From Herpetosiphonaceae bacterium (GTDB lineage Bacteria; Chloroflexota; Chloroflexia; Chloroflexales; Kallotenuaceae): 45,242 nucleotides of DNA. Of the stretch, positions 3,275 through 42,063 are shown in pieces (position 1 is the first letter of the stretch; each line of letters begins with the position of its first letter). The translations under genes and the position numbers were made by a program. The DNA lies in contig JACDGP010000035.1 in the NCBI GenBank assembly GCA_013821605.1, positions 1-45,242 of the forward strand, given 5' to 3'. The notes under the pieces are model-generated. The model was given only the letters and a program-made list of their open reading frames with translations. It had not been told where the DNA came from and made no database searches.

Positions 3275-3283
3275 CAAGTAACC

Positions 3284-3904: not shown

Positions 3905-3946
3905 CCTAATCAACGTACGCCCCCAATTCGCCGTTGGATGCAGCAG

Positions 3947-17062: not shown

Positions 17063-19363
17063 ATGGCTGCTGCGCTGCATATTAATGACAGTACCATCAA
17101 TGGACCGGTGGTGGGGGTTAACAACGGCAACATTGCCTTTACCATGTACAGTGGGCCCGTCGGTACGGTCATCCAGCACGCAGCGCCTGCACTCATTCAG
17201 CGGCTCCCAGGTAATCCCAGTCCGCCCCTGCCTCCACGTGGTTTTCGTGATCGTGAGGTCCAGCGAGCGGCGATCCAGGCCGAGTTGCGGATGGATGGGC
17301 GGGTGTGGCTCCATGGCTGCGGGGGATGTGGTGCTTCAGCGCTGCTGGCGGTCGTTGCACAGAGCGCGACACTGAAGGATGGTGTCGCGTGGGTCGCAGG
17401 GGCGCATGCGGGACACTTCCATGATGATGTGCTGATGTACCTGTTCCAGCGGTTTTACCTAGCACAGGCCGGCGCCGAGCATGCCATCGTTGATCCTGCG
17501 ACAGCTTGCACCTACCTCCAACAGCTCCAGGCGGTCTTTGTACTGGACGATCTGCCACTGGCGCGCTCCGACCTTGACGATGTGGTCAATGACCTGAACC
17601 ATGGTGTGGTCCTGGTAGCAGCTGATGCGCCGGCTCATGAGGCGTGTGCCCCATGTGAATTGGGGGGCTTACCGCCGGCAGATGCGGTTGCAATGTGGCG
17701 CGAACAGGCTGGCCTCGCTAGTGGGCGGCCCCCCCTCCAAGTTGAACTGCGGCTTTGTGCGGCGCTGGGACACCTGCCGCTTCCACTCAGACTCGTTGGT
17801 CGAGTGATGCGGGCGGGGGTGCTGACGCTTGAAGGCTGTATGGCGCTGCTTGATACTATGACGGGCAAGCCGCTCCAAGGGCGATTGCCGGCCGATCTGC
17901 CCCGCAGCCTGCGCTTAACATCACTGCCAGAAATGAGCCGTCAAGACGATGCACTCGTGCGTGCCGTCTGGCTCTGTCTAGCACCGCTTGATGCCTCCGA
18001 TCATCAAATCCTGGCATTCCTCGCGCGAGCAGCGGCCCCCGATCTCGATCTCGCAACTCTGGCCCAATTGAGTCAGATCCCGTCTGCCATGATCACCCCA
18101 GCCTTGACCCGGTTACGCAGCGTGGGGTTGGTGGTCAGTCAGGCCGAGCGCTGGTCGATCCCGGCTTCGCGGAGCCTCCGGCATGCCATTGATCAACTCC
18201 TGCCTGCGGGTGATGAGCAACGACGAGCGGCAGCTTTTTTTGCACGTGCAGCCCTGGCTCATGTGGGGAATATGCCGTGGCTGCAGCAGGAACAGGGAAA
18301 TGTCCTGGCGGCCATCCGGACGCAGCTGGCCAATGGGGAGCTGAGACAGGTTGGCCAGGTCATCCAGGCGGTGCAGCCGGCAGTCGCTAGCCAAGGTCAA
18401 TGGGGTAGCTGGAAGCAGTTGCTAGATTGGGCACGAACAGTAGCATCTACTACAAATGATCGCTCGCTCGAAGCGTGGGCACTCCATGAGGAAGGTACAC
18501 GGCTTGGCCTCGTGGGTGAGCGCACGGCAGCGGTTGATCAGCTTAGGCGCGCCGAGAAGCTACGCCGACGGCTGGGCGACCGCACGGGGGCTGCAGCCAG
18601 TCGCCATAACCGCCTAGTCCTCCAGCCAGGAGCAGGATGGTGGAAACCAACGCGCCGGAAAGGGCTGATAGCGGCAGTAGTCCTCCTTGCCGGTACTCTA
18701 GTCTCCCTGTTTCTTGCTTTAGGGGGTAGTGCCGCAAACTCCTCGACAGCTACAGCTACAGCCACAGCAACCTCAACCTCCATTCCAGGTCCTACCACGA
18801 CCCCTGTGGTCATGCCGCCGCCGCCACTCCCATCACCGTCTGGGACGGCAACGCCGACCGCAACTTTCCGTCCAACCGCGACTCCTTCAGCAACTCCGCC
18901 CCTAAGGAAGACTGCGACGACTATACCGACACGGACGAAAACAGTGACGTCGACCTCGACGATCACGCCAACGGAAACAGTGACGGCAACCACGACGATT
19001 ACGCCACCGGCACCACAAAGACTTGCATTCACAGTTGACCAAAGGGACCCAACGAGGTCAAGTGTGATCTTGACGTGGCTGCCAGTTCAGGATCCGAATG
19101 GCATTCAGCAGTATATCTTGGAGCTTGCGCCTCGTGTTTCTTCTAGTATCTCCAACAACTCTGCTCCCATTCAGGGTCAGGCCCCGGCTCCGTCCTTTGA
19201 GTTCCTTCGGTGTTGTCCACCTGGCTCGTCATGGCTGTGGCATGTACGAGCGGTCGATAAGGCAGGAACTGCAGGCCCTTGGTCAAGTGTTGCAACTATC
19301 GTCATGCCTCCGTTACCAACCGCCACGTCTACGCCGACGTCCAGTCCCCCTGTACTCAGATAG
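17063..19363 (+). CDS. STAND-like ATPase, membrane-anchored, with external FN3 domain
   Basis: A 766-residue modular protein. Residues 5-30 (INDSTINGPVVGVNNGNIAF) form a short beta-rich N-terminal tag of the sort seen before STAND NTPases. An NB-ARC/STAND-like NTPase follows, with a P-loop-position motif GCGGCGAS (85-92) and Walker B VFVLDDL. The P-loop Lys is Ala91, so nucleotide hydrolysis is doubtful. Winged-helix-like and helical segments lead to a single span near 536-556 (LIAAVVLLAGTLVSLFLALGG). A Thr/Pro/Ser-rich linker (about 557-650) then leads to a fibronectin type III domain (about 651-752) that would lie outside the cell. This suggests a transmembrane receptor linking an external adhesive domain to an internal STAND module. 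The function is unknown. Confidence 0.75.
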   Translation: MAAALHINDSTINGPVVGVNNGNIAFTMYSGPVGTVIQHAAPALIQRLPGNPSPPLPPRGFRDREVQRAAIQAELRMDGRVWLHGCGGCGASALLAVVAQSATLKDGVAWVAGAHAGHFHDDVLMYLFQRFYLAQAGAEHAIVDPATACTYLQQLQAVFVLDDLPLARSDLDDVVNDLNHGVVLVAADAPAHEACAPCELGGLPPADAVAMWREQAGLASGRPPLQVELRLCAALGHLPLPLRLVGRVMRAGVLTLEGCMALLDTMTGKPLQGRLPADLPRSLRLTSLPEMSRQDDALVRAVWLCLAPLDASDHQILAFLARAAAPDLDLATLAQLSQIPSAMITPALTRLRSVGLVVSQAERWSIPASRSLRHAIDQLLPAGDEQRRAAAFFARAALAHVGNMPWLQQEQGNVLAAIRTQLANGELRQVGQVIQAVQPAVASQGQWGSWKQLLDWARTVASTTNDRSLEAWALHEEGTRLGLVGERTAAVDQLRRAEKLRRRLGDRTGAAASRHNRLVLQPGAGWWKPTRRKGLIAAVVLLAGTLVSLFLALGGSAANSSTATATATATSTSIPGPTTTPVVMPPPPLPSPSGTATPTATFRPTATPSATPPLRKTATTIPTRTKTVTSTSTITPTETVTATTTITPPAPQRLAFTVDQRDPTRSSVILTWLPVQDPNGIQQYILELAPRVSSSISNNSAPIQGQAPAPSFEFLRCCPPGSSWLWHVRAVDKAGTAGPWSSVATIVMPPLPTATSTPTSSPPVLR

Positions 19364-27881: not shown

Positions 27882-28226
27882 TTACTTGGGGGGCAAGCTT
27901 TGGCGGTGGCAAAAGCCACAACTCGGTGCCGACCAGTGCGGCATGCGTGGGGGGAGTGCTACACCCGCCGGTCGTGGCGCGTTCGCCGGTTGGGTATGAC
28001 AGGCGATACACCGAGCCGGTCGCACACTATAGTCGTGATTGGGCAAGTGCTCAACATTAGGCGCAAAGGCTGCCGCCGCTCCCCACGCCCAAGATAGCAA
28101 GATCACGACGACGGTGAAGATGCCCACGCCGCGCATAAACGGCCCACGCATCATTTTACGATAGCGCGCACGAGCTGCTTCGCGATCAAAGGTGGGCCGC
28201 TCCCCCGGCGGCTCTTCGTTACTCAT
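27882..28226 (-). CDS. Membrane-anchored diheme c-type protein
   Basis: Protein of 114 residues. An acidic and basic N-terminal cytoplasmic segment (1-30) leads to one span (about 33-54, VGIFTVVVILLSWAWGAAAAF), then an external domain with two C-x2-C-H heme-attachment motifs, CIACH and CGFCH, about 30 residues apart. It resembles the short membrane-anchored multiheme proteins that pass electrons to periplasmic partners. No partner oxidoreductase is adjacent; it leads an operon with mnmE. Its ATG lies six bases after a perfect TATAAT, so the transcript may be leaderless. Confidence 0.8.
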   Translation of the reverse strand: MSNEEPPGERPTFDREAARARYRKMMRGPFMRGVGIFTVVVILLSWAWGAAAAFAPNVEHLPNHDYSVRPARCIACHTQPANAPRPAGVALPPRMPHWSAPSCGFCHRQSLPPK

Positions 28227-28270: not shown

Positions 28271-29575
28271 CTAACAGCAAACATCATCGCCGGCCGATGG
28301 CGGCTGCTCCTCGCGCGGATCGACCTCGGGCCAGCCCAACATCATGACTGGCAGACGGGTGCCCGGCTCAACCACCGGCGTGTCTTCGGGAACGATCAGT
28401 AAACCGTCGGCGTGCAGCATCGAGGAAAGCATGCCGCTGCCTTGGTTGCCGGTGAGGTGGGCGATCCATTCATCGCCGTTCTGTTGCATCGACACGCGCA
28501 GATACTGGCGGCGGTCACCGCGGTCAAGGATGCGGTCGGCGACCGTCGCGGTGATCGTGGAGCGAAACAGGGTGCGCCGTCCACTCATCTTAAGCAAGGC
28601 TGGACGGCCAAACAGCTCAAAGGTCAGCATGGCCGATACGGGGTTGCCGGGCAGACCCAGCAGCGGGATACCAAGCACATGGCCGAAAGCCAACGGCTTG
28701 CCCGGCTTCATACGCACGCGCCAAAAGTCGAGCGCGCCGAGCTCGGTCAAGACTTGCTTGACCACATCATAATCGCCGACCGAAACGCCACCCGAAGACA
28801 GAAACAGATCGGCACCCCAATCTCGCCCCTGCTCCAGTTGGGCTCGTACCTGTGCGGCAGTGTCGCGGGCAATGGGCAGTTGTAGCACCTCGCCGCCGGC
28901 CTGGATCACCTGTGCGGCATTCGCATAGCCGTTCGAGTTGCGAATCTGACCGGGACCCGGCACGCTGCCAACCTCGACCAACTCGTCGCCGGTCGCCAGA
29001 ATGGCGACCTTGGGCCGGCGATACACCTGGACGTTAGCGGCTCCGACGCTGGCCAGCACCCCGATCGCGCCGGGCGTAACGACCGTCCGGGCAGCCACGA
29101 CCAGCGTGTCCCGCCGCACATCTTCTCCGGCTCGTCGGACGTTCGCGCCCGGCTCCCCAGCTTGGAAGATCCGGACGCGCCCTTCACTGCGCAGTGACGT
29201 AGTGCTGCGATCATCGGTATCCTCAAAGGGCACGACCAAATCGGCACCCGGCGGGAGTGGCGCGCCCGTCATGATCCGCATGACTGTACCCGGCTCGACG
29301 GCTGTCGTGGCGACACCTCCGGCCGGGACCGCGCCGACGACGCGCAAGATTGCAGGACGATCGCTGATCGCGGCGACGTCAGCATGCCGCACCGCGAAGC
29401 CATCCATCGCTGAGTTGTCGAAGGGTGGCAGGTTAATATCGGCGCGAATATCCTCGGCTAAGGTGCGGCCAAGGGTGGCGATTAAAGGAACGGTCTCGGT
29501 TCCAAGCGGAACAATATGGGCTAAAACGGCAGCTTGAGCATCTTCCACCGAGCGCAAAATAATGGCATCACTCAT
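28271..29575 (-). CDS. moeA: Molybdopterin molybdenumtransferase MoeA
   Basis: Inserts molybdate into adenylylated molybdopterin in molybdenum-cofactor synthesis; cytosolic dimer. The N-terminus has LPPFDNSAMDGFAVR, the family's substrate-site motif. The central MoCF-biosynthesis domain has ILATGDELVEVG and LFLSSGGVSVGDYDVVK. Near the C-terminal domain lies LLGLPGNPVSAMLTF. About 434 residues, full length. The tail ends in an unusual acidic CC. The start at 29575 follows from family alignment; the in-frame extension upstream reads into a translated remnant of an unrelated gene. The promoter geometry suggests a leaderless mRNA. No other moa/mob genes are in the window. Confidence 0.95.
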   Translation of the reverse strand: MSDAIILRSVEDAQAAVLAHIVPLGTETVPLIATLGRTLAEDIRADINLPPFDNSAMDGFAVRHADVAAISDRPAILRVVGAVPAGGVATTAVEPGTVMRIMTGAPLPPGADLVVPFEDTDDRSTTSLRSEGRVRIFQAGEPGANVRRAGEDVRRDTLVVAARTVVTPGAIGVLASVGAANVQVYRRPKVAILATGDELVEVGSVPGPGQIRNSNGYANAAQVIQAGGEVLQLPIARDTAAQVRAQLEQGRDWGADLFLSSGGVSVGDYDVVKQVLTELGALDFWRVRMKPGKPLAFGHVLGIPLLGLPGNPVSAMLTFELFGRPALLKMSGRRTLFRSTITATVADRILDRGDRRQYLRVSMQQNGDEWIAHLTGNQGSGMLSSMLHADGLLIVPEDTPVVEPGTRLPVMMLGWPEVDPREEQPPSAGDDVCC

Positions 29576-29581
29576 AGGGCG

Positions 29582-29610
29582 AGTATAGCAGGGGGGCATG
29601 AGTGGGGCAA
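29582..29610 (-). promoter_or_regulatory. moeA promoter, leaderless geometry
   Basis: On the minus strand TTGCCC (29605-29610), 17 bases, TATACT (29582-29587) with an upstream TGC (extended -10), then six bases to the ATG. It ends five bases before the left island repeat, so the insertion left moeA control intact. Confidence 0.65.
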
Positions 29611-29614
29611 GATG

Positions 29615-29669
29615 GCGGCAGCTACTCGGGCGTGAGCAGATAGGTGTTGATCGCCCACGCCACGCCATC
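29615..29669 (-). repeat. Left island repeat: orphan 3' end of HAD gene
   Basis: On the minus strand 29669 to 29622 reads DGVAWAINTYLLTPE-stop, identical in protein to the last 15 residues of the Cof-type HAD gene at 40073-40885. The repeat also includes seven bases past the stop (GCGGCAG on the plus strand), with further bases in common before a 3-base indel. Base differences from the right copy are three, all at codon third positions (GTG/GTA, CTG/CTA, CCC/CCT). The upstream body of the gene is missing here. Confidence 0.92.
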
Positions 29670-29682
29670 ACGAGAAGCTTGA

Positions 29683-29723
29683 CAAACTACCGTCCCGCTC
29701 TCCCCAAAGGAGGACGGGACGGT
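29683..29723 (-). terminator. Terminator after haloperoxidase-like gene
   Basis: On the minus strand, ACCGTCCCG/CGGGACGGT (29689-29723) extends by inner pairs CTCC/GGAG to a stem of roughly 15 bp with a short loop, followed by AGTTTGTC. Placed 12 bases past the stop codon. Confidence 0.75.
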
Positions 29724-29734
29724 CCTATTCACCA

Positions 29735-31282
29735 TCAGCACTGGACGTCGTAGAGCACACCGTTCTTGGTGATCGCATCCTTTGTGATCTTGAACTGGTC
29801 GTTCTCGAAGCTCGTGAACGTGAATGAGTAGTCTTCGTTGTAGTCTTTCATCTGACTACGTAGGACGCAGAGCGCGACCTGCTCGCCTAAGAGGACTGAT
29901 TGTATATAGTCGCTTCGCCAGTGGACCCCCGCCATATTGCGTCCGATTGCAATGTTGGCCGCGAGCTTATTCAACTCGCTACCGACGGTCAGGTGATGTG
30001 CATCCGGTCGTGTATAGGGTACGAGTTCCATCCCATCGTCAGTTGGCACGACTGGGTTTGGCACCGGTGCTTGCTCATCGAACCATGCCTTGAGGATTGT
30101 CACGCATGCACCTGCGACGGTTGCGTGACCGGCTCCATAGGAAGGATGTGTCGGACTGCCTTCCGGAAAGGCTTGTGGGAGCAAGTAGGTGCCGTATTTC
30201 GTGAATGTCTTATCCAGCGCCTTGGAGTTCAGAATATCGTCGTGAATTGGATAATTTTTCTTGGTGCCATTGAGACCAGCCAGCTTCAAGTGCACTAAGC
30301 CACCGTATTCTTCCGGGCGCAACCGCCGGTGCACGAACCATTTCTGGTACCAAACGGTTTTCAAGGCGCGGGTGGCAACTTCGGTAACCAAGCTCAGGAT
30401 GTGTGGATCGCCGAACGTGCCGAAACCGATCTGGGTTTTCGATTTGCCAAGCACGGCGGGATTGTAAGGATTGCCTGCGTCCACCGGCACCTTCATGTCG
30501 AGCAAGATCAGGCAGGCGTTGAGGTAGGCTTCGTACAGTGCATCCATGTGTACCCACTGACCCATGTCGCGCATGTTCCGAATGTACCGCCGCGTCCCGT
30601 CAAACTGATCCGGCCCTGGTTGGTACCCGTTCTGAACTGCAAGCCATGCACCATAGTCGGTCAAGTAATCCTCACCAGGCACCACCGTTTGCGCTTTCTG
30701 GCTGATCAGCAACGCGCCGTACCGAATATCCTTGAGCAGGAACTGCGAAATGTACGGTCCCCGTCGCTCGCCGTGGGTGAACCCACGAAAGATGGTCTTC
30801 GCTGTAAGTGGAATGTTGTGCTCTGGGTCCAACTCAGTGAGCTTTCCCAGATCCACGACCGCCTGCGCAACCAGCGAGTCGCTACCAAACTCCGTGAACG
30901 GGACGTCACGTAGCAGAGCTATCCAGTAGAGCTCGACTGCCTCTGCCGCCTCTTGCGCACTGCTGAGGGTCGGCGGTGTCAGCATCGTCAGGTTGTGAGG
31001 ATTCGGCCCTTCCACATCCGTAGCAAGTCCTGCCTGTGGGTCGGTTAACTTGCGACCAAGCCCCAGCTTGATGGCTTCGAAAGTGGCAGGCAGGCCACTG
31101 TTGAGTGCATCCAGTAGGGATTGGTAGGCTATCGCATTGACCTCGCCAAATTCATCGTGAGGTAGGCCTTTGTGGAAGTTGCCGATCCGGGTCGGGTAAC
31201 GTGTTTCGTCACCATTTGTCGGATGTGCAATGGTCATGCTGCCCGCTTCCATCACCATGTGACCGTTTCCTGCGTCACTCAT
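29735..31282 (-). CDS. Vanadium-dependent haloperoxidase homologue (PAP2 superfamily)
   Basis: About 515 residues. The three vanadate/phosphate-site motifs are present in order. First comes K-x7-R in QKWFVHRRLRPEEYGG (near residue 314), with the spacing of red-algal bromoperoxidases. Next is THPSYGAGHATVAGA. Last is GRNMAGVHWRSDY, with Arg and His. The enzymes oxidise halides with H2O2; some relatives are acid phosphatases. In red-algal enzymes the second motif carries a Ser before the GH that binds vanadate; here it is Ala, which may alter activity. No signal peptide is seen. A strong AAGGAG precedes the ATG at 31282. It is flanked by hairpins on both sides, so likely a single transcript. 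Confidence 0.85.
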   Translation of the reverse strand: MSDAGNGHMVMEAGSMTIAHPTNGDETRYPTRIGNFHKGLPHDEFGEVNAIAYQSLLDALNSGLPATFEAIKLGLGRKLTDPQAGLATDVEGPNPHNLTMLTPPTLSSAQEAAEAVELYWIALLRDVPFTEFGSDSLVAQAVVDLGKLTELDPEHNIPLTAKTIFRGFTHGERRGPYISQFLLKDIRYGALLISQKAQTVVPGEDYLTDYGAWLAVQNGYQPGPDQFDGTRRYIRNMRDMGQWVHMDALYEAYLNACLILLDMKVPVDAGNPYNPAVLGKSKTQIGFGTFGDPHILSLVTEVATRALKTVWYQKWFVHRRLRPEEYGGLVHLKLAGLNGTKKNYPIHDDILNSKALDKTFTKYGTYLLPQAFPEGSPTHPSYGAGHATVAGACVTILKAWFDEQAPVPNPVVPTDDGMELVPYTRPDAHHLTVGSELNKLAANIAIGRNMAGVHWRSDYIQSVLLGEQVALCVLRSQMKDYNEDYSFTFTSFENDQFKITKDAITKNGVLYDVQC

Positions 31283-31366
31283 AATCTCGCTCCTTGCCGA
31301 GTGCGTGGGTATCACTCGATGCCTATGAAAGGAGACGCAGCAGGCGATTGCTTGCACTTAACGTCG

Positions 31367-31392
31367 AACGGCCACCATAGCCGGTGGCCGTT
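31367..31392 (-). terminator. Hairpin after zincin gene
   Basis: AACGGCCACC (31367-31376) pairs perfectly with GGTGGCCGTT (31383-31392) around a six-base loop, between the zincin stop and the haloperoxidase start. The following bases are only weakly T-rich. Confidence 0.55.
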
Positions 31393-31446
31393 TGCTGTTG
31401 GCAGGGGCAGGATCAGGGTGACGTCGTGCCACTGACGGGTACTTGA

Positions 31447-33747
31447 TCAGTCTCGTGGTACCCAGTAGAGGCGGTACCGCTCGTATCGCACGTTACCTTC
31501 TCTATAATCTGGGTCAATGAGCCGTGGAGCAGTCGTGACATCCAACGGCGCGGCGACGTACCATGCCCCGCTGGGACGGTACGAAGGTATTGGGTGCCAT
31601 ACACCCTTATCGTCCTGTCGGTGGATAATCGCTTCACCATCCCGCAGTTCGGTGCGTTTGTCATAAAAAATGCATAATGTAGGCAGATAGTCGTGCGGCA
31701 ACAGATCGTTGCTACACAAGCTATATGTGTAGCCACGCGCCTCAGCGTTTGTATCCAGTTTACTGGGTGCTCCGCCCGGCCAGCGCGTTGTCACCATCCT
31801 GATCTTCCCGTGCTGTTTATTGCCATCTGGATATTCTCCTTGGTCAGCGAAGAAGATCATCAGATTACCGTCTGACGAACCGGGCGTCATTGGTGTCCCA
31901 CCTACCGGTGAGCCCGTGGGCGGCCCTCCTCCCTGGGAATAGGTTGCTATAACAAACGTGTCGCCCTGTTTCACAAAAACGTGACCATCCAATGATATGC
32001 CTTCTTTGAGGTCCCGATTCCCACTGACCGGAAGCTGGTCGCCCTGTTCCACAAAAACGTGACCATCCAATGGCGTGCTGCCTTCGGTGATCTGGCCTCC
32101 TCTTAGATGAATCCGAATGTTGGCTTGTGGATCGGGACTAGTAACTTGATCGAGTGGGAAGACATACACTTCTGCACGCGCGATAGCATCCGCGCTACCA
32201 GGGGCAGATACGTTCACGCGAATTTTGGCGGTGCGAGCGTATTCTGACTGGACTGCTTCCGGCTGCACCTCAATGATTGGGAACGACTTGGGTGTCACAT
32301 CTCGCCATTTAAGTGCCGTAATCTCCCAGCGTCCTTCCTCCTTGTCTGTTACTCCAGCTATCTTTCCACACAGCACCTTTTCGTGCCAGTCCATGCTATC
32401 GCCAATTAGGACGATCGAGTCGCCTTCTTCAGCGCCAAACAGCCGGAAGCCATCCTCAACGCGCGCGTCGAGCGTTCCTTGCGCGAGGATACGATCAGGA
32501 ACAGTAGTCTCGTCAAGGTTTTTAAGAATGTATACCCAACAGTGTTCGATATTTACCCGGGGATCGACCAGAGACACTGGGAGTAGTAATTCCTGTTTCC
32601 AATTAGGGTGCTGCCCTGGCGCACCGTTCGTGCTGGAAAGTTGCAGCCAAGCGACATGTGGCAGTTCGTGTAACGGCAAGGGAACCCTGATGGTCCTAAC
32701 TGGTTCCTTAATTTGGGGAAACCGAGGGATTTGCTTGGTACCAACTCCTTTAAATCCATCGATGATAATGTCCCACTCAGCCTGCTTGCCTTTGGCAACA
32801 TCGGTGTTACTGTGTGCCGTGAGCTGGCTTGTTCCTTCGAGCGTGGACATGATCGACTCGACGGGTGGACTAATCGAGGGTACAACCACGTTCCGGGTAC
32901 TGCGTCGTGCTTCGTAAGGTGACGCAGTAGCCTTGATGTCATCGGGAATATATATTTGATGCGTATCCACGTAATTATCAAGTAATTCCAAAGCATAGTG
33001 TGCCCACTCGTGAACCAGCACTCGATAAGCTTCCGGCTCGTCCCACGGGATACTTCCGCGGCTATTCTTCTGCCAGTACCCCCGGCCAAGTCTAATGGGC
33101 ATATACTTAGTTGATTCATGGAGACCACCAACCCAACTGCGCGGGAGCAGGCGGTTCGTGGCCATTACCTGCACATCAGCGCAGTTAAGTAACTCGGGAC
33201 CACCTATGATTACTTGGCCGAAGGTCATCCAGCCGTCGGTCACGTTGAAAAGAAAGTCTGAGGCACGCCGCACGGCGCGCTCGAGTATTTGGACATTATA
33301 TGGGCTCGGTGACCATTCAAATGCGACGATGACGTTGAAGAGGTAGATGTGGTCCTGGAAGAGCGGCTGTCCGGCAGGATCTCGATCTCCTGAATGCACA
33401 CAGTAACACTGATAGGTCCAATTAAAAGGAGTAAGAAGCTCCTTGCTATCTGTGTTGAACATTACGTCCAGCGTATGATCTGGTTCGCTCTTAGCACCGT
33501 AAATCGGAACTAACTGGAATGGACTGGTGATGGCCTTCTTGATCGCAGTCTTTTGTGTTTCGTTTCGTTCGCCTAACTTTTGTGGTATGTTTCCAGAATC
33601 TGCCTTTGATGACTCGGCGGCTACTTCGGCTTTGTCTGGATAGATTGAAGCTCTTGTCAATGTGACATTTGAAGGACGGGGCTGGATGATGTGATCAGAA
33701 GACTGATCCGTCGGATTAAACATATACGACTGCTGTTCGTTCGCCAT
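31447..33747 (-). CDS. Large CLCA-like HEWAH zincin metallopeptidase homologue
   Basis: A 766-residue protein with a zinc-metallopeptidase motif VHEWAHYALELLDNY: H246-E-W-A-H250 and an Asp seven residues later. The HEWAH-x6-D spacing is that of the N-terminal metallohydrolase domain of calcium-activated chloride channel regulators (CLCA). The protein begins without a signal peptide (MANEQQSYMFNPTDQ). The C-terminal half appears beta-rich, with an internal 26-residue duplication (DGHVFVEQGDQL / DGHVFVKQGDTF) and a Gly/Pro linker. Base composition looks lower in GC than neighbours. It is divergent from the CHAT gene, with 69 bases between starts. Substrate is unknown; the family link rests on the motif. 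Confidence 0.7.
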   Translation of the reverse strand: MANEQQSYMFNPTDQSSDHIIQPRPSNVTLTRASIYPDKAEVAAESSKADSGNIPQKLGERNETQKTAIKKAITSPFQLVPIYGAKSEPDHTLDVMFNTDSKELLTPFNWTYQCYCVHSGDRDPAGQPLFQDHIYLFNVIVAFEWSPSPYNVQILERAVRRASDFLFNVTDGWMTFGQVIIGGPELLNCADVQVMATNRLLPRSWVGGLHESTKYMPIRLGRGYWQKNSRGSIPWDEPEAYRVLVHEWAHYALELLDNYVDTHQIYIPDDIKATASPYEARRSTRNVVVPSISPPVESIMSTLEGTSQLTAHSNTDVAKGKQAEWDIIIDGFKGVGTKQIPRFPQIKEPVRTIRVPLPLHELPHVAWLQLSSTNGAPGQHPNWKQELLLPVSLVDPRVNIEHCWVYILKNLDETTVPDRILAQGTLDARVEDGFRLFGAEEGDSIVLIGDSMDWHEKVLCGKIAGVTDKEEGRWEITALKWRDVTPKSFPIIEVQPEAVQSEYARTAKIRVNVSAPGSADAIARAEVYVFPLDQVTSPDPQANIRIHLRGGQITEGSTPLDGHVFVEQGDQLPVSGNRDLKEGISLDGHVFVKQGDTFVIATYSQGGGPPTGSPVGGTPMTPGSSDGNLMIFFADQGEYPDGNKQHGKIRMVTTRWPGGAPSKLDTNAEARGYTYSLCSNDLLPHDYLPTLCIFYDKRTELRDGEAIIHRQDDKGVWHPIPSYRPSGAWYVAAPLDVTTAPRLIDPDYREGNVRYERYRLYWVPRD
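31961..32072 (-). repeat. Internal duplication in zincin gene
   Basis: A 34-base segment (CCCTGTTTCACAAAAACGTG...) at 31961-31994 recurs at 32039-32072 with one mismatch, 78 bases apart (26 codons). Near-identity at DNA level in otherwise diverged sequence indicates a recent duplication or gene conversion. Confidence 0.85.
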
Positions 33748-33816
33748 AGTCTGCCTCCGCTTTGCTTACATACGCTCAATGTGCTACCACACCTGACCCG
33801 ATAGAAAGGCCTGTCG

Positions 33817-36474
33817 ATGACTATCAACTTAAAGGTGGATGATCTATCGCTCCTTTCACTTTGCGCAATCCTTCGTCGCTTCGACGGTGATTTGTTGCAG
33901 TCCTTTGCTTCGTTCGACGCGTCTGCGTTAACCGAACTGCTCGCCAGCGACCGAGTAGTACCCGTCCCAGAACTTCCCGGCTCATTTCAAGTCCGTGAGG
34001 ATGTGTGGACCGATGTACTGGCCCGCCTACGTGCAGAGCATCCAGACGACGAGTTGATGCTCCACGAGGAAGCATTTGTCCGCTTCCTGCAGCGCTTGCA
34101 GGATGATCCCAGTATCCCCGAGCGTCGTGACCACGAGGAGCGCTGCTTCTATCACCTTGAGGCGCTCCGCGTACCGTTGATCGAGCGCCGTGAGTGGGAA
34201 CGTATCCGCCACTACGTCGCCGTCCTCCGGGCCGCACGCCCGCAGGCGCAACGCCATCTCCACCTGCTGTCGCTCTATGACGGCTTTGATGCGCTTCACA
34301 TCCCAAACTACGAGGTCGGTGAAGCCATCCTCTCGACCCTCGTGGCCGATCCTTCACTGGCAGACGACATCCGGATGCGCGCCTTCAACATGCTGGCGCA
34401 GATCCACTGGTTCCAAACCCAATACGACCAGGCACTGGAGTTCTACCGGCAGGTTCATATACTTGCGGGCGTAACCACCAATCCTACCTTTCAAGCTCAC
34501 GCTCTGCTCAATATGAGCATGGTTTACCACGAGATTGGCTACTACATCCAGGCACTGGAATTGAGCGAGCAGAGTCTGCATGCGTATCAAGCGCTGGACG
34601 ATACGTACCACGAGGCGCATGCGCACTATGAGGTCGGCAAGAATGCGATACAGCTTGGGCGTTGGCAGGACGCGCAACATCATTTGGATGCAGCCGACGT
34701 GATCTACGTCCGGCTGGGTGTAGAGTCTCAACTGGCTAACCTGTATTGTCTGCGGGCTCAGTTGCACCATGCCCTCGGTGACGAAGTCGAAAGCAAAATG
34801 TGGTATCTGCGTAGTCTGGAAATCGGACGGTCTCAACAGCATGGCGACCCCGCTGTAACGATGGATGCCTGGCTCCTGCTTGGGTTCCTCTACCAAACTC
34901 AAGAGCATTGGTCTGAAGCTCTGGCGGCCTACGAGCAGGCCGCTACAATCGCTGCGGGCTTACGTAACACGCACTCATTGGCGCTCACTCACTTCCGCTG
35001 TGGCGAAGTGTATAAGGTTCAAGGATTGACCCATGCAGCTGCCAACGCGTACCGCAAAGCGATCGATTTGCTTGAGACCCTGCGCGGGGCTGCGGCCGGC
35101 GAGGAAGTGAAGCTTGGGCTCCTCGGCGCCACACAGCAAATCTACGAGGCGACCATCCTCCTCCTGCTTGAGCAGGGTCGTCATGCTGAGGCCTACCATT
35201 TCGTACAGCGCGCACGTGCACGTGCGTTTCTTGATATGCTGGCGCAGAAATCGCCTGAACTGTACGCCTCGTTCGACCAGCCGGTCGCTACACTGGCGGA
35301 GATTCAGGCGCACCTGCCCAAGGATGCCGTGCTCGTTGAGTACTTCACCACAGGTGTTCTGCCACGCGGTGATAGCCTCATCAACCGGCTCCCACTCAAT
35401 AATGCGCGTCTGCGCAAACATCTTACCACACGACCTTCCATCCTAATCTTCGTTGTCACGCACGACGGCCTGGAGATCTACCGCCCATTGCTCGATCCAA
35501 ATACGTTGCGGCCCTTGCCGCATGATGCTGGCCCAAGCAGGCGTCTGTTAGAGCGGCCGCGTTTGCTCACAGAATTGCACAAACGCCTTATTGCACCATT
35601 TCAACACGTGCTACAAGACCGTCAACTGCTCTACCTGATCCCGCATGGGCCACTGCACTACGTACCGTTTCTGGCCCTCTGCTCTGCTTCCGGGGAGTTC
35701 CTCCTTGATCGTAGCGGTCCAGCAGTCGCCATGGTGCCTAGTGCAACGATTCTGTTACGCAATTGCCTCGCATGCCCTCGTGGTCGCGGCCGTGGGTTAC
35801 TCGCGGTAGGCTACAATGGTGTAGGCGAGCGCGAACTGCGTTATGCCGAAGTCGAAGCACGTGCGATCGCTCGATTGCTAGGTGGCGAGGCGTGGACCGG
35901 TCCCCAGCGTAAGACCGATAGTCTGATCGAGCCGGCCCGCCACGCATGCTGGCTGCATTTCGCCGGACATGCAGTCTATGACCCCCAAGATCCGCTCAAC
36001 TCCGCACTACAACTAGGAGAAGATGAGGCGCTAACCGCACGGACGATCATCGGACGGCTTAACCTCCAAGCTGATCTGGTGACGCTAAGCGCATGTACAA
36101 GTGGGCTGAGCCATGTCGTTCCCGGCGACGAGTTGTTTGGCCTCCAGCGCGCATTCTTATACGCAGGCGTCCCCAGTGTTGTTTGCACGTTGTGGGAGGC
36201 CAACGACCTTGTCGCGCTGCTGATCATGGAACTGCTGTATACCGCGCTACGAGCGGGGGTGCCGGTGGCGGCGGCGCTACGAGATGCACAGGTAACGATC
36301 CGTGAGATGACGGGACGCGATCTCCAGGCAACCATCACGCGGTTGCATTCGGATAACCCCGAGCTCGCTGCAGCGCTCAATGATATGATAGGTGTCCAGG
36401 CCGACCTGGATACCCATCTGTTTGCCGACCCATTCTTCTGGGCACCTTTTATGCTTATCGGCGGACCGCGCTAG
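33817..36474 (+). CDS. TPR-CHAT caspase-like protease
   Basis: 885 residues. The N-terminal 100 are of unknown type. About 130-460 consist of TPR-like helical repeats (for example AHALLNMSMVYHEIGYYIQA, DAWLLLGFLYQTQEHWSEA). The C-terminal third is a CHAT domain with the caspase-like dyad: His718 in LHFAGHAVYD and Cys760 in LSACTSG, plus GDELFGLQRAFLYAGVPSVV and the ALRDAQ end. CHAT proteases act in eukaryotic separase and bacterial immune systems such as Craspase and gasdermin activators. AAAGG lies eleven bases before the ATG. It converges with a sigma/zf-HC2 pair (17 bases between stops), a neighbourhood I associate with CHAT proteins of unknown role. Cleavage of a partner is inferred. Confidence 0.9.
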   Translation: MTINLKVDDLSLLSLCAILRRFDGDLLQSFASFDASALTELLASDRVVPVPELPGSFQVREDVWTDVLARLRAEHPDDELMLHEEAFVRFLQRLQDDPSIPERRDHEERCFYHLEALRVPLIERREWERIRHYVAVLRAARPQAQRHLHLLSLYDGFDALHIPNYEVGEAILSTLVADPSLADDIRMRAFNMLAQIHWFQTQYDQALEFYRQVHILAGVTTNPTFQAHALLNMSMVYHEIGYYIQALELSEQSLHAYQALDDTYHEAHAHYEVGKNAIQLGRWQDAQHHLDAADVIYVRLGVESQLANLYCLRAQLHHALGDEVESKMWYLRSLEIGRSQQHGDPAVTMDAWLLLGFLYQTQEHWSEALAAYEQAATIAAGLRNTHSLALTHFRCGEVYKVQGLTHAAANAYRKAIDLLETLRGAAAGEEVKLGLLGATQQIYEATILLLLEQGRHAEAYHFVQRARARAFLDMLAQKSPELYASFDQPVATLAEIQAHLPKDAVLVEYFTTGVLPRGDSLINRLPLNNARLRKHLTTRPSILIFVVTHDGLEIYRPLLDPNTLRPLPHDAGPSRRLLERPRLLTELHKRLIAPFQHVLQDRQLLYLIPHGPLHYVPFLALCSASGEFLLDRSGPAVAMVPSATILLRNCLACPRGRGRGLLAVGYNGVGERELRYAEVEARAIARLLGGEAWTGPQRKTDSLIEPARHACWLHFAGHAVYDPQDPLNSALQLGEDEALTARTIIGRLNLQADLVTLSACTSGLSHVVPGDELFGLQRAFLYAGVPSVVCTLWEANDLVALLIMELLYTALRAGVPVAAALRDAQVTIREMTGRDLQATITRLHSDNPELAAALNDMIGVQADLDTHLFADPFFWAPFMLIGGPR

Positions 36475-36491
36475 TACCATCCGGTACATTG

Positions 36492-37217
36492 CTACCCTTC
36501 AGGTAACGCACCAGGCCTGATCTCGACCTGCATGTCACCGACTGCTTCCATTGGAACCGGTGTGAAAACAACAAAGCCGATTTCGTCCGTCTCGCCGTGC
36601 AAACTCGTGCCAGCAATACGCAGGATCACCGAGCTACCCCCCTGATTGAATACGTCTTTGGTAAGCATTTCGACGCCGACACGCACCCTAGCCTGCTTGC
36701 GTGCTCGATCTTCTGTTGCAACGTCGACCGTTACATTGATGTGCTGCGTTGCACTTGCTCGCTCCACATGATAGCGATACAGCCAGTCGCCCTGGGCTCC
36801 GCCCCGAAACTGGCTTACGGGCACTGGCTGGTGGATGGTGTTGGCCAGCGCCTGAGAGAATGAAATGATGATCCGGTCGAGCGTGTCGATCACCAATGCC
36901 TGGAGTGACATCTGCGATGGAACAGATAATGGGCGAGCGGGTCGTAAGAACGATAGATCGGGCTGCGAACAGCTGGGAGCGGGCGGGATTTCGTCGTCAG
37001 CCGTAGCATCAACATACTCGATCAACTCGTCAAGCTCCGCACGACATACACTGCATGTGCGGATGTGCTCGGAAACCTCTGGGTAGAGCGCTGACGCATC
37101 GTTCCCCAGCATGCGCTGCATCACGTAATCTGGAAAACGTGTCCGCACCATATGCGTTTCGGCTGCATTTGCACCATGCTCCGAGACATTGGAATCGCTG
37201 TCGCCTGTCACATCCAC
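36492..37217 (-). CDS. zf-HC2 anti-sigma-like protein with C-terminal beta domain
   Basis: 241 residues. The anti-sigma zinc-binding motif H-x3-C-x2-C appears as HIRTCSVC (about 71-78). There is no membrane span. The C-terminal part (from about LQALVIDTLDRIIISF to VPMEAVGDMQVEIRP) looks like a beta-sandwich ending in a G-F-V-V-F-x-P-V-P-M turn, as in regulatory-domain proteins that accompany CHAT operons. It starts three bases after the upstream sigma-like stop with GGGGAG before it, so translation is coupled. The likely role is a soluble anti-sigma or adaptor for the sigma-like protein and a possible CHAT substrate (inference). Confidence 0.75.
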   Translation of the reverse strand: MDVTGDSDSNVSEHGANAAETHMVRTRFPDYVMQRMLGNDASALYPEVSEHIRTCSVCRAELDELIEYVDATADDEIPPAPSCSQPDLSFLRPARPLSVPSQMSLQALVIDTLDRIIISFSQALANTIHQPVPVSQFRGGAQGDWLYRYHVERASATQHINVTVDVATEDRARKQARVRVGVEMLTKDVFNQGGSSVILRIAGTSLHGETDEIGFVVFTPVPMEAVGDMQVEIRPGALPEG

Positions 37218-37220
37218 TAC

Positions 37221-38051
37221 TTACTCCCCGCCCTCGACTGGCCGTCTGTCCCTCGTCTCGTGTTTCACGTGTGGCAACAACCCATCTTCCCTTGCGAGTT
37301 CCTGCCAGCACGCCAGTTGCTTAAGCTTCGCAATCGCCCGTGTGCGTAACACATAGACGTTCTCGACTGAGTTGCCAAGTCGCTGCCCGATCGTGCGATC
37401 ATCAAGCCCATGCCTATACTGCAGCAACAGCACCTCAAGTTGCTGGTGTGCACGGGGGTGGAGTTGGCGAAACTCTTCGAGACAGCGCTCGACCCCGGCG
37501 ACGCGTTCCTGTCCTCGCATGCGCAGCAGGGCTTCGTCAGCGGGGTCCAACTGTGCCTCATCGACAAGTCGCTCAAGCAGGGGGACATCATCCGGGTGGG
37601 ATGCTGCCTCAAATGAAGCCTCGGGCCGGCTTAACTGTCGTCGCAGCGCTTTCGCCGCATCGCGGAGATGCTGCAAAGCAAACGCAAGAAATGCGCCTGG
37701 AGTGCGGCAGCGTTGAAAAGCGATGAAGGTCGCTTCCAATGCTTGCTGCGCGGCCTCCGTGCTGACATCCCGGTACCTCCAATAGGCAATATCACACAGA
37801 TAGCGGTGCAGTTCGGTGTAACCAAGCTCTTGTCGGTCTTGACCCTCGCTCCCCGAGCAAGCGTTGTACATGGCCTGGCTGTAGACATAGAGTGCAGCTC
37901 TTGGTGGTTTGGCATCTACATCTTGAAGGATCTGGGCAAGCGTTTGCTGCACGAACAGTTCGTGGTCGAGAAGCGCCCACGCATGCCGCGTAACGAACTG
38001 CTCAACTGCTTGCCGACACTGAATCTCGAGCTCTGAAGAGTTGTGCTCCAT
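37221..38051 (-). CDS. Divergent ECF-like sigma factor
   Basis: About 276 residues. The C-terminal helix-turn-helix (RAHQQLEVLLLQYRHGLDDRTIGQRLG followed by VENVYVLRTRAIAKLKQ) matches sigma-70 region 4. A weak region 2 is seen around YRDVSTEAAQQALEATFIAFQR and GAFLAFALQHLRDAAKALRR. The N-terminal 100 residues are not recognised. I chose ATG 38051 (MEHNSSELE); the frame is open to 38240, and the extra 63 residues do not look sigma-like. It lies just upstream of and coupled to the zf-HC2 gene. The target promoters are unknown. Confidence 0.72.
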   Translation of the reverse strand: MEHNSSELEIQCRQAVEQFVTRHAWALLDHELFVQQTLAQILQDVDAKPPRAALYVYSQAMYNACSGSEGQDRQELGYTELHRYLCDIAYWRYRDVSTEAAQQALEATFIAFQRCRTPGAFLAFALQHLRDAAKALRRQLSRPEASFEAASHPDDVPLLERLVDEAQLDPADEALLRMRGQERVAGVERCLEEFRQLHPRAHQQLEVLLLQYRHGLDDRTIGQRLGNSVENVYVLRTRAIAKLKQLACWQELAREDGLLPHVKHETRDRRPVEGGE

Positions 38052-38283
38052 CAACACCACAAATGCGTACCTGATAGACGGATAGTGTGGACTGATGCGG
38101 ACGATCTTGGCCAGTAAGGGGCATTCCCATAGCGCAGAAACATCATAGCACAGGGAGCGCATGGATTCAACTGGCACGTGGCTGCACGTTGCCATCTGCC
38201 TCCCGCAGATCTTCAGCGTCATGCGTTCACCATTGAGCATCCATGCAGGCTTTCATCGGGTCCCTCACAAGAGAAAGGGGGTT

Positions 38284-38298
38284 AGAAACCCGGCTTCT
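38284..38298. repeat. AGAAACCCGGCTTCT palindrome
   Basis: A 15-base near-palindrome in the divergent gap between the sigma-like and PASTA-like genes. Similar AGAAACC-CGG-TTTCT palindromes occur as interspersed repeats in cyanobacterial and Chloroflexi genomes, from memory. The rest of 38052-38430 holds no gene if the later sigma start is right. Confidence 0.4.
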
Positions 38299-38430
38299 TG
38301 CACTTAGCCGGTCCTGCGGACATGTCAGAACAATGAACCAGCAGAATGTTCCGCTTAGTATGTTGGACCAGGCGGCAACTGCAAGGTTTCTGGGCTGCCC
38401 TCCCTTATTGAGTTCGAAAGGAGGGTACAT

Positions 38431-39288
38431 ATGCTGGATTCAAAGAACCTGAAAGATGTCAGTTCCGGATTATCTTTCAGTAAAACCGCGCGGGATGCTG
38501 GATTGCCCGAGAAGCTCGACAGTGGGCAGAAGGAAAAAGCAGAGGCAAAACACGGTTTGGTAGCTGGCATCTTTAGTATCGTCTATTTGCTGCTTATGCT
38601 TGCCTTCTTTAGCTGGCAACTGTTCGATACTTGGATTGGAGCGCACACATTGATCGGCCTGTTCGGCTACAGTCTGACGCGCCTCAATACGCCCACCTTC
38701 CATCTCATTGCCTTTACGATGATTGGCGGTGCACTCGGTGCCATTGTTAATGGAATCCGTAGCTTTCTTCGCTATAGTAATGGCTTTGCGTCACGGCATA
38801 CGTGGAAGTACATCACGGCTCCTTGGATGGGGGGCGTGCTGGCGCTCCTCGTGTATGCCCTGATCCACAGCAGCACTGCCGTATTTAGCGGGAGTACCAC
38901 AACGGACGGCGGCAGCGCTCAACTCCTGGCTAACTTCGCTGCTGCAGCGCTCGCAGGCTATGGCTCACGGGATGTCTTCATCTGGCTTGATGCGCAAGTT
39001 GAGAAGCTGTTCAAAGTACCGCAAGGCGTTCCCAATGTGATAGGCAAACCCGAAGAGCCGGCAACGGATACGCTACACGATCACAACTTGGCGAAAGGCG
39101 CAACCATCAATGTGCCTCGGAAGCATGGTGAGATAGATGGGACAGTGGTAGCGCAATCACCATCCCCAAACGAGATAACGACCCGCGACGCGGAGGTTGA
39201 TCTAGTCGTTGCTACAAGCGTATCAGACAAAGGAGGTGTGCCACTCTCACAGGATCCAGCCTCAGCTAATGGTACCAAACCGCATTGA
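38431..39288 (+). CDS. Four-span membrane protein with PASTA-like C-terminus
   Basis: 285 residues. A Lys/Asp-rich N-terminal 40 precedes about four hydrophobic spans (near 43-65, 88-108, 130-150 and 165-185). The tail (about 205-265) begins VPNVIGKPEEPATDTL and continues to SPSPNEITT...DLVVATS, a PASTA-type domain (V-P-x-V-x-G opening, ending in a V-x-L-V-V-x-x strand). PASTA domains bind peptidoglycan or muropeptides, which fits the amidase gene 141 bases downstream. Whether the tail lies inside or outside depends on topology that I cannot settle. AAAGGAGGG precedes the ATG. Confidence 0.65.
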   Translation: MLDSKNLKDVSSGLSFSKTARDAGLPEKLDSGQKEKAEAKHGLVAGIFSIVYLLLMLAFFSWQLFDTWIGAHTLIGLFGYSLTRLNTPTFHLIAFTMIGGALGAIVNGIRSFLRYSNGFASRHTWKYITAPWMGGVLALLVYALIHSSTAVFSGSTTTDGGSAQLLANFAAAALAGYGSRDVFIWLDAQVEKLFKVPQGVPNVIGKPEEPATDTLHDHNLAKGATINVPRKHGEIDGTVVAQSPSPNEITTRDAEVDLVVATSVSDKGGVPLSQDPASANGTKPH

Positions 39289-39429
39289 TGGAGCTAAACT
39301 CGCCTAGAAGGAGCTGGGGTACGCCCGCCGTCGGGTAAGCAGGCCACCGCTATGGTAAAGAGCGAACTGGTACAAGGGTGCCATGGCCTGAATATGGTCG
39401 AATGGTTTTACCACTAACAGGAGTTTCTC

Positions 39430-39990
39430 ATGACTACGAACATTGACCGGACGACCTGGGATACCACGCAGTTCCGGCCAGTCAATAACGGTTACTGGAG
39501 CCGCGCCAATTTCGGCGGGCGCCTACCCAACCGCATTGTCGTTCACACCACCGATGGTGTCCTCGGCAGTACCTTCACAGGCGAATGCCGCTATCTCAGT
39601 GACGCAACAAACGAACAAGACCCAAATAACCAGGTCTGTGCGCACTACATGATCGGCAAGCAGGGTCAGTGTGCGCGGCTGCTCGATCCACGCCTGTTCA
39701 TCGCATGGGCTGTTGGCAGGTGCATTGATGGATGGTCTAACATCAACACTATCAGCATCGAATGCCATCTGACGACGGGCGAAAACTGGACACCTGAGAT
39801 GCGCGCCACACTGGAGAGCTTGGTCCTCGAACTCGCTGACATCTATCCTATCCAAGACCTATCTGTAGATGTGGAAACCCATCGGCACATCGCTCTACCC
39901 CCCGGTCGCAAACAGGATCCAGTCATGTGGAGCGATAACGATTTTGATGCATGGCGAGCCAATCTGAGCCTAGCAGCGGCACCCGCGTAA
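39430..39990 (+). CDS. N-acetylmuramoyl-L-alanine amidase (PGRP/Amidase_2-like)
   Basis: 186 residues. The first zinc ligand His is in RIVVHTTDG, followed by CAHYMIGKQGQ, an A-W-A-V strand, INTISIECHLTTG and a late T-H-R-H segment with K-Q-D-P, the usual H...H...(D/K) order of T7-lysozyme/PGRP-type amidases. These cleave the lactyl-alanine bond of peptidoglycan. No signal peptide is present, so export would need another route, as with phage endolysins. AGGAG lies before the ATG. It is the last gene of the island. Confidence 0.82.
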   Translation: MTTNIDRTTWDTTQFRPVNNGYWSRANFGGRLPNRIVVHTTDGVLGSTFTGECRYLSDATNEQDPNNQVCAHYMIGKQGQCARLLDPRLFIAWAVGRCIDGWSNINTISIECHLTTGENWTPEMRATLESLVLELADIYPIQDLSVDVETHRHIALPPGRKQDPVMWSDNDFDAWRANLSLAAAPA

Positions 39991-40015
39991 GGTACATCGC
40001 GAAAGGACCCGCACC

Positions 40016-40041
40016 GACCGCCGTAGCCTGCTGCGGCGGTC
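40016..40041. terminator. Hairpin between convergent amidase and HAD genes
   Basis: GACCGCCGTAG pairs with CTGCGGCGGTC (one T-G pair, minimal loop), a very stable stem between two convergent genes. T-rich bases follow on the plus strand only after about 10 bases. Confidence 0.6.
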
Positions 40042-40062
40042 ATCCCATCGATATTGTATACA

Positions 40063-40120
40063 GCGGCAGCTACTACTCAGGCGTGAGTAGATAGGTGTTG
40101 ATCGCCCACGCTACGCCATC
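40063..40120 (-). repeat. Right island repeat within HAD gene 3' end
   Basis: 58 bases covering the last 15 codons and stop of the HAD gene plus 10 bases beyond. It matches 29615-29669 apart from three synonymous changes and an extra ACT next to the stop. This is the right boundary of the putative island. Confidence 0.92.
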
Positions 40121-40885
40121 TTCCCACACGGGTGGTAGCACGGCCTTAGCCGCCGCCTGGACTTCCGGGATCGCGTTGCCCATCGCGAGGCCGAGGCCGG
40201 CCCAGCGGATCATTGGCAAGTCGTTCTCCTGGTCACCGATGGCGATCACCTCTTCGCGGGCGATGCCCAGCCGCTGCGCCAGCTGTTGCAACGCTGCTCC
40301 TTTGCTGACGCCTAGTGGGGTGAGTTCGCCAAAGTTGGCGTGGGAGCGTAGTGCGGTGAGCCGACCGGCGAAGTGCACGACCAGTTCAGCCAGTGCCTGC
40401 GTAACGACGTCCGACTCCGCAATGAAGAGCAGTTTGAGCGGTGCAGTTGTGGCGACGAGGCCGGCCAAATTGGGCTCGACCACGATGTGCACACCCTCTG
40501 GGTGCAGCGCGTTGTACTCGTTGATCTCCGGCCCATATGCGGCGATATACTGGATCTCATCGATGAATACAACCACCGGTAACTGCATGGTGAGCAGCAG
40601 CTGCACGGCTTCGACCGCGAGGTCATTCGGCATAACAGCATGGTGATAGATTTCGCGCGTCACTGGCTCGATGAGCAAACCACCCTGGTAGCAGATAACG
40701 GGCTCGTGGATGTCCAACAGTTTGATGAACGGTAACGTCGCGGTAAAGGTGCGGCCCGTCGCGAGCGTCACCCTCACACCGCGCGCCTGCGTGTCCGCGA
40801 TGGCATGCTGGACGGCCGAGCTGAGTTCCCCGGTTGGGCTCAGTATGGTGCCGTCAAGGTCAAGGGCTAGTAAGCGGTAGGGCAT
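40073..40885 (-). CDS. Cof-type HAD-IIB hydrolase
   Basis: 270-residue haloacid-dehalogenase phosphatase. Motif I is LLALDLDGTIL, motif II LATGRT, motif III includes KGAALQQLAQRLG (conserved Lys), and motif IV is IGDQENDLPMI, with a IIB cap between. Substrates of the Cof group include sugar phosphates, FMN and HMP-PP; not assignable here. AAGGAGCC precedes the ATG. The 9-base gap from the TMEM175-like gene suggests an operon. Its 3' end is one copy of the island repeat, so the last 15 codons may derive from the incoming element. Confidence 0.93.
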   Translation of the reverse strand: MPYRLLALDLDGTILSPTGELSSAVQHAIADTQARGVRVTLATGRTFTATLPFIKLLDIHEPVICYQGGLLIEPVTREIYHHAVMPNDLAVEAVQLLLTMQLPVVVFIDEIQYIAAYGPEINEYNALHPEGVHIVVEPNLAGLVATTAPLKLLFIAESDVVTQALAELVVHFAGRLTALRSHANFGELTPLGVSKGAALQQLAQRLGIAREEVIAIGDQENDLPMIRWAGLGLAMGNAIPEVQAAAKAVLPPVWEDGVAWAINTYLLTPE

Positions 40886-41509: not shown

Positions 41510-41833
41510 CTAGCTGATTGCATCAAAGCCTAAGGCAAACTCAATAGCAAATCGCACCGCTCGCAGCTTAGTCGCTGATAGGTGGGTAATGAAAGTGTTC
41601 AAATTTGCCTTAGGCACCGTCTGGATGTTGTCGAAATTGACCGCACAGTCGTTAAAAAGACCATCTGCGGGCGTAAGCACAACTTCTGAAGGAATCCCAC
41701 GGATAGTTGACGTAATCGGCGCGATGGTAATACCGGGTAAAAATCTAATAGCAGGAGTCCGAGTCAAAATCAAGACGGGACGCCGTTTGTCTGGTGCGTG
41801 GAAACTGTACCAGTACACGTCGCCTTGATTCAT
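41510..41833 (-). CDS. MazF/PemK-type endoribonuclease toxin
   Basis: 107 residues beginning MNQGDVYWYSFHAPDKRRPVLIL, the MazF-fold N-terminus in which the P-D-K-x-R-P-V region holds the catalytic Arg, followed by ITIAPITST (conserved Thr) and a later SEVVLTPADGLFNDCAVNFDNI. MazF toxins cleave mRNA at short sequence motifs. Starts on an ATGA overlap with the antitoxin stop. An in-frame start four codons earlier lies inside the antitoxin gene and is less likely. Confidence 0.9.
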   Translation of the reverse strand: MNQGDVYWYSFHAPDKRRPVLILTRTPAIRFLPGITIAPITSTIRGIPSEVVLTPADGLFNDCAVNFDNIQTVPKANLNTFITHLSATKLRAVRFAIEFALGFDAIS

Positions 41834-42063
41834 TCCTGTCCCCACGTCTGTTCAGTGGCCCATATATCAAACTCACCTGGCTGGACAGGATGGTCGGTAT
41901 AGCCTCGTGCATGTTGGGCGTCTGCAGCTGCAATCTCATAGCTACGTACTGCAGCTTCCAGCGCAGCGCGAATGAATGCGGAGCGGGTTGTCTTGCGTTC
42001 CACAATGACCCGGTCGACTTCTGCAAGCAGTGGTTCATCGATCGTCATCTGAATCGTTTTCAT
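41830..42063 (-). CDS. Ribbon-helix-helix antitoxin of MazEF-type module
   Basis: 77 residues. The N-terminal ribbon-helix-helix (KTIQMTIDEPLLAEVDRVI, KTTRSAFIRAALEAAV) binds DNA, and an acidic, Gln/Trp-rich C-terminus (FDIWATEQTWGQE) is suited to block the toxin. It is the first gene of the module, coupled to the toxin by ATGA. It would autoregulate through the TGTGGA half-sites that overlap its promoter. Confidence 0.88.
   Translation of the reverse strand: MKTIQMTIDEPLLAEVDRVIVERKTTRSAFIRAALEAAVRSYEIAAADAQHARGYTDHPVQPGEFDIWATEQTWGQE

Follow-up and report, generated by a model that had tools for sequence, protein, structure and literature searches.

Four adjoining genes, encoding a caspase-like protease, a large zincin-type protein, an anti-sigma-like protein and a divergent sigma factor, make up the core of a segment of about 10.4 kb (positions 29614-40120) in the genome of a Herpetosiphonaceae bacterium. 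The window analysed here, 45,242 nt in length, is the whole contig C122 of this 259-contig, 5.88-Mb genome, and the segment holds seven genes between two copies of a short direct repeat derived from the 3' end of a HAD hydrolase gene. Judged by sequence comparison, the recurrence of the four-gene core in relatives is a solid result and the part worth following. From it, a CRISPR-independent (clustered regularly interspaced short palindromic repeats) switch is tentatively proposed for this order of Chloroflexota, in which a TPR-CHAT protease and its zincin partner would cleave an anti-sigma factor and free a dedicated ECF (extracytoplasmic function) sigma factor; the core would be common to several families and present here as an acquired cassette. 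We regard this proposal as plausible, though still short of probable.

Composition and recurrence of the four-gene core

The TPR-CHAT caspase-like cysteine protease was recognized by domain match at 33817-36474 of the plus strand, and the His718 and Cys760 of its CHAT motif are invariant in 11 homologues. Next to it on the minus strand (31447-33747) lies the gene for the large zincin protein, weakly CLCA-metallopeptidase-like and assigned by its motif and a weak domain match. The zincin motif HEWxHYxxxxxD is invariant in the aligned homologues, and PF08434 matches 4 of 10 of them (best E 0.0019), the window protein falling below the cut-off. Its predicted structure, with a mean predicted local distance difference test score (pLDDT) of 56, found no PDB match at E ≤0.001. 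A 78-bp tandem duplication was also seen within this gene at 31960-32072 (35-nt copies, 97%), which repeats LDGHVFV(E/K)QGD in the protein.

The other two core genes lie on the minus strand beyond the protease gene. The protein encoded at 36492-37217 is anti-sigma-like by motif, profile and predicted structure, with an HxxxCxxC zinc finger, N-terminal helices and a C-terminal beta domain. The residues H51, C55 and C58 of the finger are invariant in seven homologues, three of which match zf-HC2. Its profile matched five PDB chains up to E 1, weakly (E 0.055-0.97), including RsiW, ChrR, DdvA and 3hug_B; all five are anti-sigma factors, counting 3hug_B, which we take to be an anti-sigma factor chain. 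The predicted structure (mean pLDDT 69) gave no PDB match at E ≤0.001. The adjoining gene at 37221-38240, whose start is probably some codons further in, encodes the divergent ECF-type sigma factor, which scored 32 bits against TIGR02937 (cut-off 42.9) and matched the solved ECF sigma factor 9isn at E 0.002.

The relatives compared belong to other genera, the nearest moeA being about 61-64% identical, and a moeA search of all relatives' genomes and a collection of genome contigs found no second genome of that genus. At 10 of the 12 loci fetched, the zincin gene adjoins the TPR-CHAT gene; the remaining two loci lie on contigs that stop at the zincin gene. All four core genes were present at six loci including the window, and their co-occurrence extends to other families of the order. 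In one relative (G004, contig C65), the order and orientation of the core are those of the window, on the opposite strand. Further copies of the zincin and CHAT genes were found on another contig of that genome (C265) and in G005 (C1223), with the sigma pair not nearby. Among 400 genomes drawn from the phylum, the closest homologues of the sigma factor (E <1e-30) came from this order and from G160 only, and on contig C449 of G160 a CHAT domain and a zinc-finger protein are encoded after the sigma gene. Ten weaker sigma matches elsewhere all lacked CHAT and anti-sigma genes in linkage; only that contig of G160 has them. The four-gene core was not found described in the literature searched, of which coverage was partial.

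Two long frames were noted at these loci. After the sigma/zinc-finger pair of G160, a frame of 1627 aa (L241, 2992-7875) carries CHAT, cyclase, AAA, TPR and solute-binding matches; it may be a single fusion protein or an assembly join, and could merge several genes. In G032 (L089, 8788-13407), a zincin frame antisense to the CHAT gene stays open for more than 1500 codons, which is probably a by-product of composition and not a longer gene.

A possible protease-controlled switch

Based on the gene content of the core, a mechanism can be proposed in which the zinc-finger protein would hold the ECF-like sigma factor until the TPR-CHAT protease is triggered, presumably through its TPR domain. The triggered protease would cleave the inhibitor, or would act by relay through the CLCA-like zincin, and the freed sigma factor could then transcribe a set of response genes.

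Such a scheme recalls the type III-E CRISPR system, in which the sigma factor CASP-sigma is inhibited by Csx30, and Csx30 is cleaved by the TPR-CHAT protease Csx29 (PMC10028731). As in that system, the segment encodes a TPR-CHAT protease with intact His and Cys, together with an ECF-type sigma factor and an anti-sigma-like protein that would act as its inhibitor. However, neither Cas7-11 nor any other Cas family was found among the segment proteins, and the protease scored 26 bits against the Csx29 model NF041237, for which the cut-off is 300. Furthermore, the inhibitor candidate of the segment carries an HxxxCxxC zinc finger, and the core contains an extra large zincin. By analogy, the segment may work like Csx29, Csx30 and CASP-sigma, but it is not a member of that system.

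A second comparison is offered by the EACC2 neighbourhoods of multicellular bacteria, in which caspase genes stand with ECF sigma genes and which were described as conflict systems (PMC8195603). Here too, a gene for a caspase-superfamily peptidase adjoins an ECF sigma gene in a host of multicellular habit. The segment proteins differ in having no TRADD-N or DUF1822 match, in having a TPR-CHAT protein instead of a fused caspase, and in the presence of a zinc-finger inhibitor candidate and a zincin of their own. The only matches of defence-system models on the segment were generic ones to TPR and PASTA stretches and a weak one to a CHAT stretch.

If the core works as proposed, the protease/inhibitor/sigma switch of type III-E CRISPR loci would exist without CRISPR. 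It would then be a simple case for studying the signals and substrates of TPR-CHAT proteases, and for asking whether stand-alone cassettes of this kind were the building blocks of the CRISPR version.

The border repeat and the origin of the segment

The segment is bordered by a direct repeat of 56 nt, whose copies at 29614-29669 and 40065-40120 are 89% identical in an ungapped comparison and are spaced 10,451 nt apart. Self-BLAST of the window recovered the pair at E 1.3e-14 across 58 columns, and the runner-up in the whole genome was 17 nt with E 0.1; the repeat is thus unique there. Both copies read on the minus strand. The copy at 40065-40120 is the 3' end of the living HAD gene, while the other is an orphan that comprises the last 15 HAD codons, the stop and 8 nt beyond it, and lies 38 nt upstream of the moeA start. 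The coding part of the repeat, 48 nt, consists of 15 codons and the stop (DGVAWAINTYLLTPE*). Past the stop, an additional TAG (a 3-bp indel) is present in the HAD copy; CTGCCGC then follows in both copies. The perfect core of the repeat is 23 nt, and its borders are sharp.

The two copies of the coding part differ at three positions, all of them synonymous third-position transitions (GTA/GTG, CTA/CTG and CCT/CCC in the HAD copy and the orphan, respectively). The duplicated 3' end and the three synonymous differences were already reported in the preliminary description, which concluded that both copies had once been under coding constraint. In a calculation that assigned about 12 synonymous sites to a constrained HAD and 48 sites to a neutral orphan, so that an accepted change is synonymous with p of about 0.4, the probability of three synonymous changes out of three after duplication was about 0.06, and it was 0.014-0.029 if every change fell in the orphan. 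The synonymous differences thus favour two coding alleles without demanding them: the pattern stands, and the conclusion drawn from it is weaker than supposed, a probability of about 0.06 being reached even with a neutral orphan. In the living HAD tail, GTA, CTA and CCT are the codons less used by the body of the gene, and the orphan has the preferred ones. These rarer A/T-ending codons would match a tail from lower-GC DNA, at three sites only.

The moeA gene (28271-29575, minus strand) more likely starts at the ATG at 29575 than at 29671, the start of the longest open reading frame; the frame to there is longer, but 29671 is probably not the true start. A putative moeA promoter, TTGCCC-N17-TATACT (29582-29610, minus strand; elements at 29605-29610 and 29582-29587), was identified by consensus match only; it is apparently intact and lies directly outside the orphan copy. 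In the family members, and in G030 as one more genome of the order, moeA is preceded by the divergently oriented mraZ, rsmH, ftsL and ftsI, by the gene-called part of this cluster or by its immediate neighbours, with names read from translations. After moeA, the family members whose contigs are long enough carry a homologue of 27882-28226, mnmE and an acylphosphatase gene. The mraZ gene of the source genome lies on a different contig, without moeA. The HAD gene of the relatives has prmC to one side and asp23/fakA to the other, with two or three genes before asp23 in G001.

The window HAD, a Cof-type HAD-IIB hydrolase by family match (40073-40885, minus strand), stands outside this vertical line. 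In the HAD tree, four family HADs form one clade (100/100), and the window HAD is placed outside it on a long branch; in the source genome, the prmC region reads prmC, a CAP-domain gene, asp23 and fakA, with HAD absent. Because it falls outside the family clade and HAD is missing from the prmC/asp23 locus, the window HAD probably originated outside the line of the family and replaced the original gene. Since the family order is moeA with mraZ and HAD with prmC/asp23, a HAD-moeA junction, if ever present, must have been recent and lineage-specific. The idea that the HAD 3' end originally lay beside moeA consequently fails as an ancestral order and survives only as a late event.

The remaining genes of the segment were considered together with the core as its cargo. 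The minus-strand gene at 29735-31357 encodes a vanadium-dependent haloperoxidase of the bromoperoxidase family, which matches the solved enzymes 1qhb (E 2.7e-94) and 1qi9 (E 3e-84 over residues 42-528). It is patchily distributed and rare in relatives, being present in two of five family members; in G078, one homologue and a related TPR-CHAT gene are 2.3 kb apart. At the other end, on the plus strand, domain matches identify a membrane protein with one PASTA domain (38431-39288) and an N-acetylmuramoyl-L-alanine amidase (Amidase_2; 39430-39990). The GC content at third codon positions (GC3) is 0.54-0.65 in the segment genes, 0.76 in HAD and 0.70 in moeA. Good homologues of the zincin, like those of the haloperoxidase, occur in two of the five family members. 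The cargo looks acquired because of its lower GC3 and this patchy distribution in the family.

Taken together, the segment is likely a block of acquired DNA that bears the footprint of an insertion, which may have been site-specific. The reading that we tentatively put forward, as plausible but falling somewhat below an even chance, is that a cargo block with a protease-controlled transcription switch as its core entered the HAD-moeA junction. The junction would have existed before the insertion, the orphan tail would be what remains of the 3' end of the resident HAD, and the tail in which the living HAD now ends would have arrived with the block. Counted in favour of this reading are the uniqueness and sharp borders of the repeat, the promoter-like sequence left intact beside the orphan copy, the lower GC3 and patchy distribution of the cargo, and the rarer codons in the living HAD tail. 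The likeliest route would be site-specific insertion by a recombinase since lost, which would make the segment comparable to decayed cis-mobilizable elements (CIMEs); such elements, retaining only the attachment (att) sites attL and attR, are known (PMC5704250). CIMEs and the ssrA islands of Dehalococcoides (PMC3146451) likewise have a repeat of a gene 3' end at both borders and cargo inside. In the segment, unlike in those elements, no integration module was found, and neither a related complete element nor an empty site was seen. Measured as a CIME, it has the repeats and lacks integration and transfer genes, and no complete relative shows that the repeats are att sites. As a gene-3'-end island, the segment has little to set it apart as long as no empty site is known.

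Several results weigh against this reading. Family-model searches found no recombinase among the seven genes, which fill the segment and leave about 650 bp of intergenic DNA in all, with no room for an integrase remnant; the earlier remark that no integrase is visible between the repeats accordingly holds. No att-like copy of the repeat occurs on the contigs that bear the tyrosine recombinases of the source genome. No HAD-moeA adjacency was seen in the relatives examined. No comparable duplication of the HAD tail was found at 29 other HAD loci (28 in other genomes and one paralogue in the source genome), many of them read over 7-20 kb, in a survey that was not exhaustive, several contigs ending within a few kb; the best tail matches were 40 nt, inverted, in L101 and 22-31 nt, direct, in L210 and L211. 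The HAD 3' end is therefore not a visible integration hot spot. In addition, the GC3 of the segment overlaps that of some flanking genes, a regular-expression search for a common ECF promoter gave no convincing motif, and in the genera g4 and g12 the zincin is found in all or nearly all species examined, which suggests that the core is stably inherited there and not mobile. Of the site-specific island first described, the direct 3'-end repeat and the acquired-looking cargo remain, while integrase, att-like copy and reuse of the target are all missing.

The missing integrase is accounted for if the block arrived by homology-facilitated illegitimate recombination, for which none is needed. The HAD allele and cargo of a related strain would have paired with the resident HAD, and the other end would have been joined by microhomology inside the resident gene, leaving its last 48 bp. 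It would also be understandable that the alleles differ synonymously and that the border falls at an arbitrary point within the gene, and with a window HAD that is not native to the family, import of an allele is plausible. This route requires, however, a donor in which the cargo already began within about 10 nt of the HAD stop, and none was present among the genomes examined; we consider it rather unlikely. Two coding copies, which suit the all-synonymous differences, are also assumed if the orphan tail is the last trace of a second complete HAD gene by moeA, duplicated or imported and later deleted, with the cargo unrelated. HAD genes have indeed been moved, lost and replaced in this lineage, but the sharp start and stop of the homology would be left unexplained, as would the ending of the cargo within about 75 bp of both copies, so that such a history appears improbable. 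Finally, the segment might be a usual site-specific mobile element that still moves by means of an integrase acting in trans. Elsewhere, the source genome encodes eight tyrosine recombinases whose catalytic domain is nearly complete, and elements reduced to their att sites have the precedent given above. The absence of a repeat copy from the recombinase contigs speaks against it, as does the lack of relatives of the zincin in plasmid and viral collections, and it is the least credible of the explanations, with very little chance of being correct. The repeat, used as a pattern, had 0 matches in viral contigs.

Other features of the window

A second sigma/anti-sigma pair was found at 2285-3913, composed of a standard ECF sigma gene (3284-3913) and an anti-sigma gene with RskA_C and zf-HC2 domains (2285-3277) that contains internal repeats at 2619-2869. 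The 766-aa protein encoded at 17063-19363 had 0 Pfam matches. Beyond the HAD gene, a PemK/MazF-like toxin gene (41510-41845) is 75% identical to a gene of G004 that lies 4.7 kb from HAD in a different orientation.

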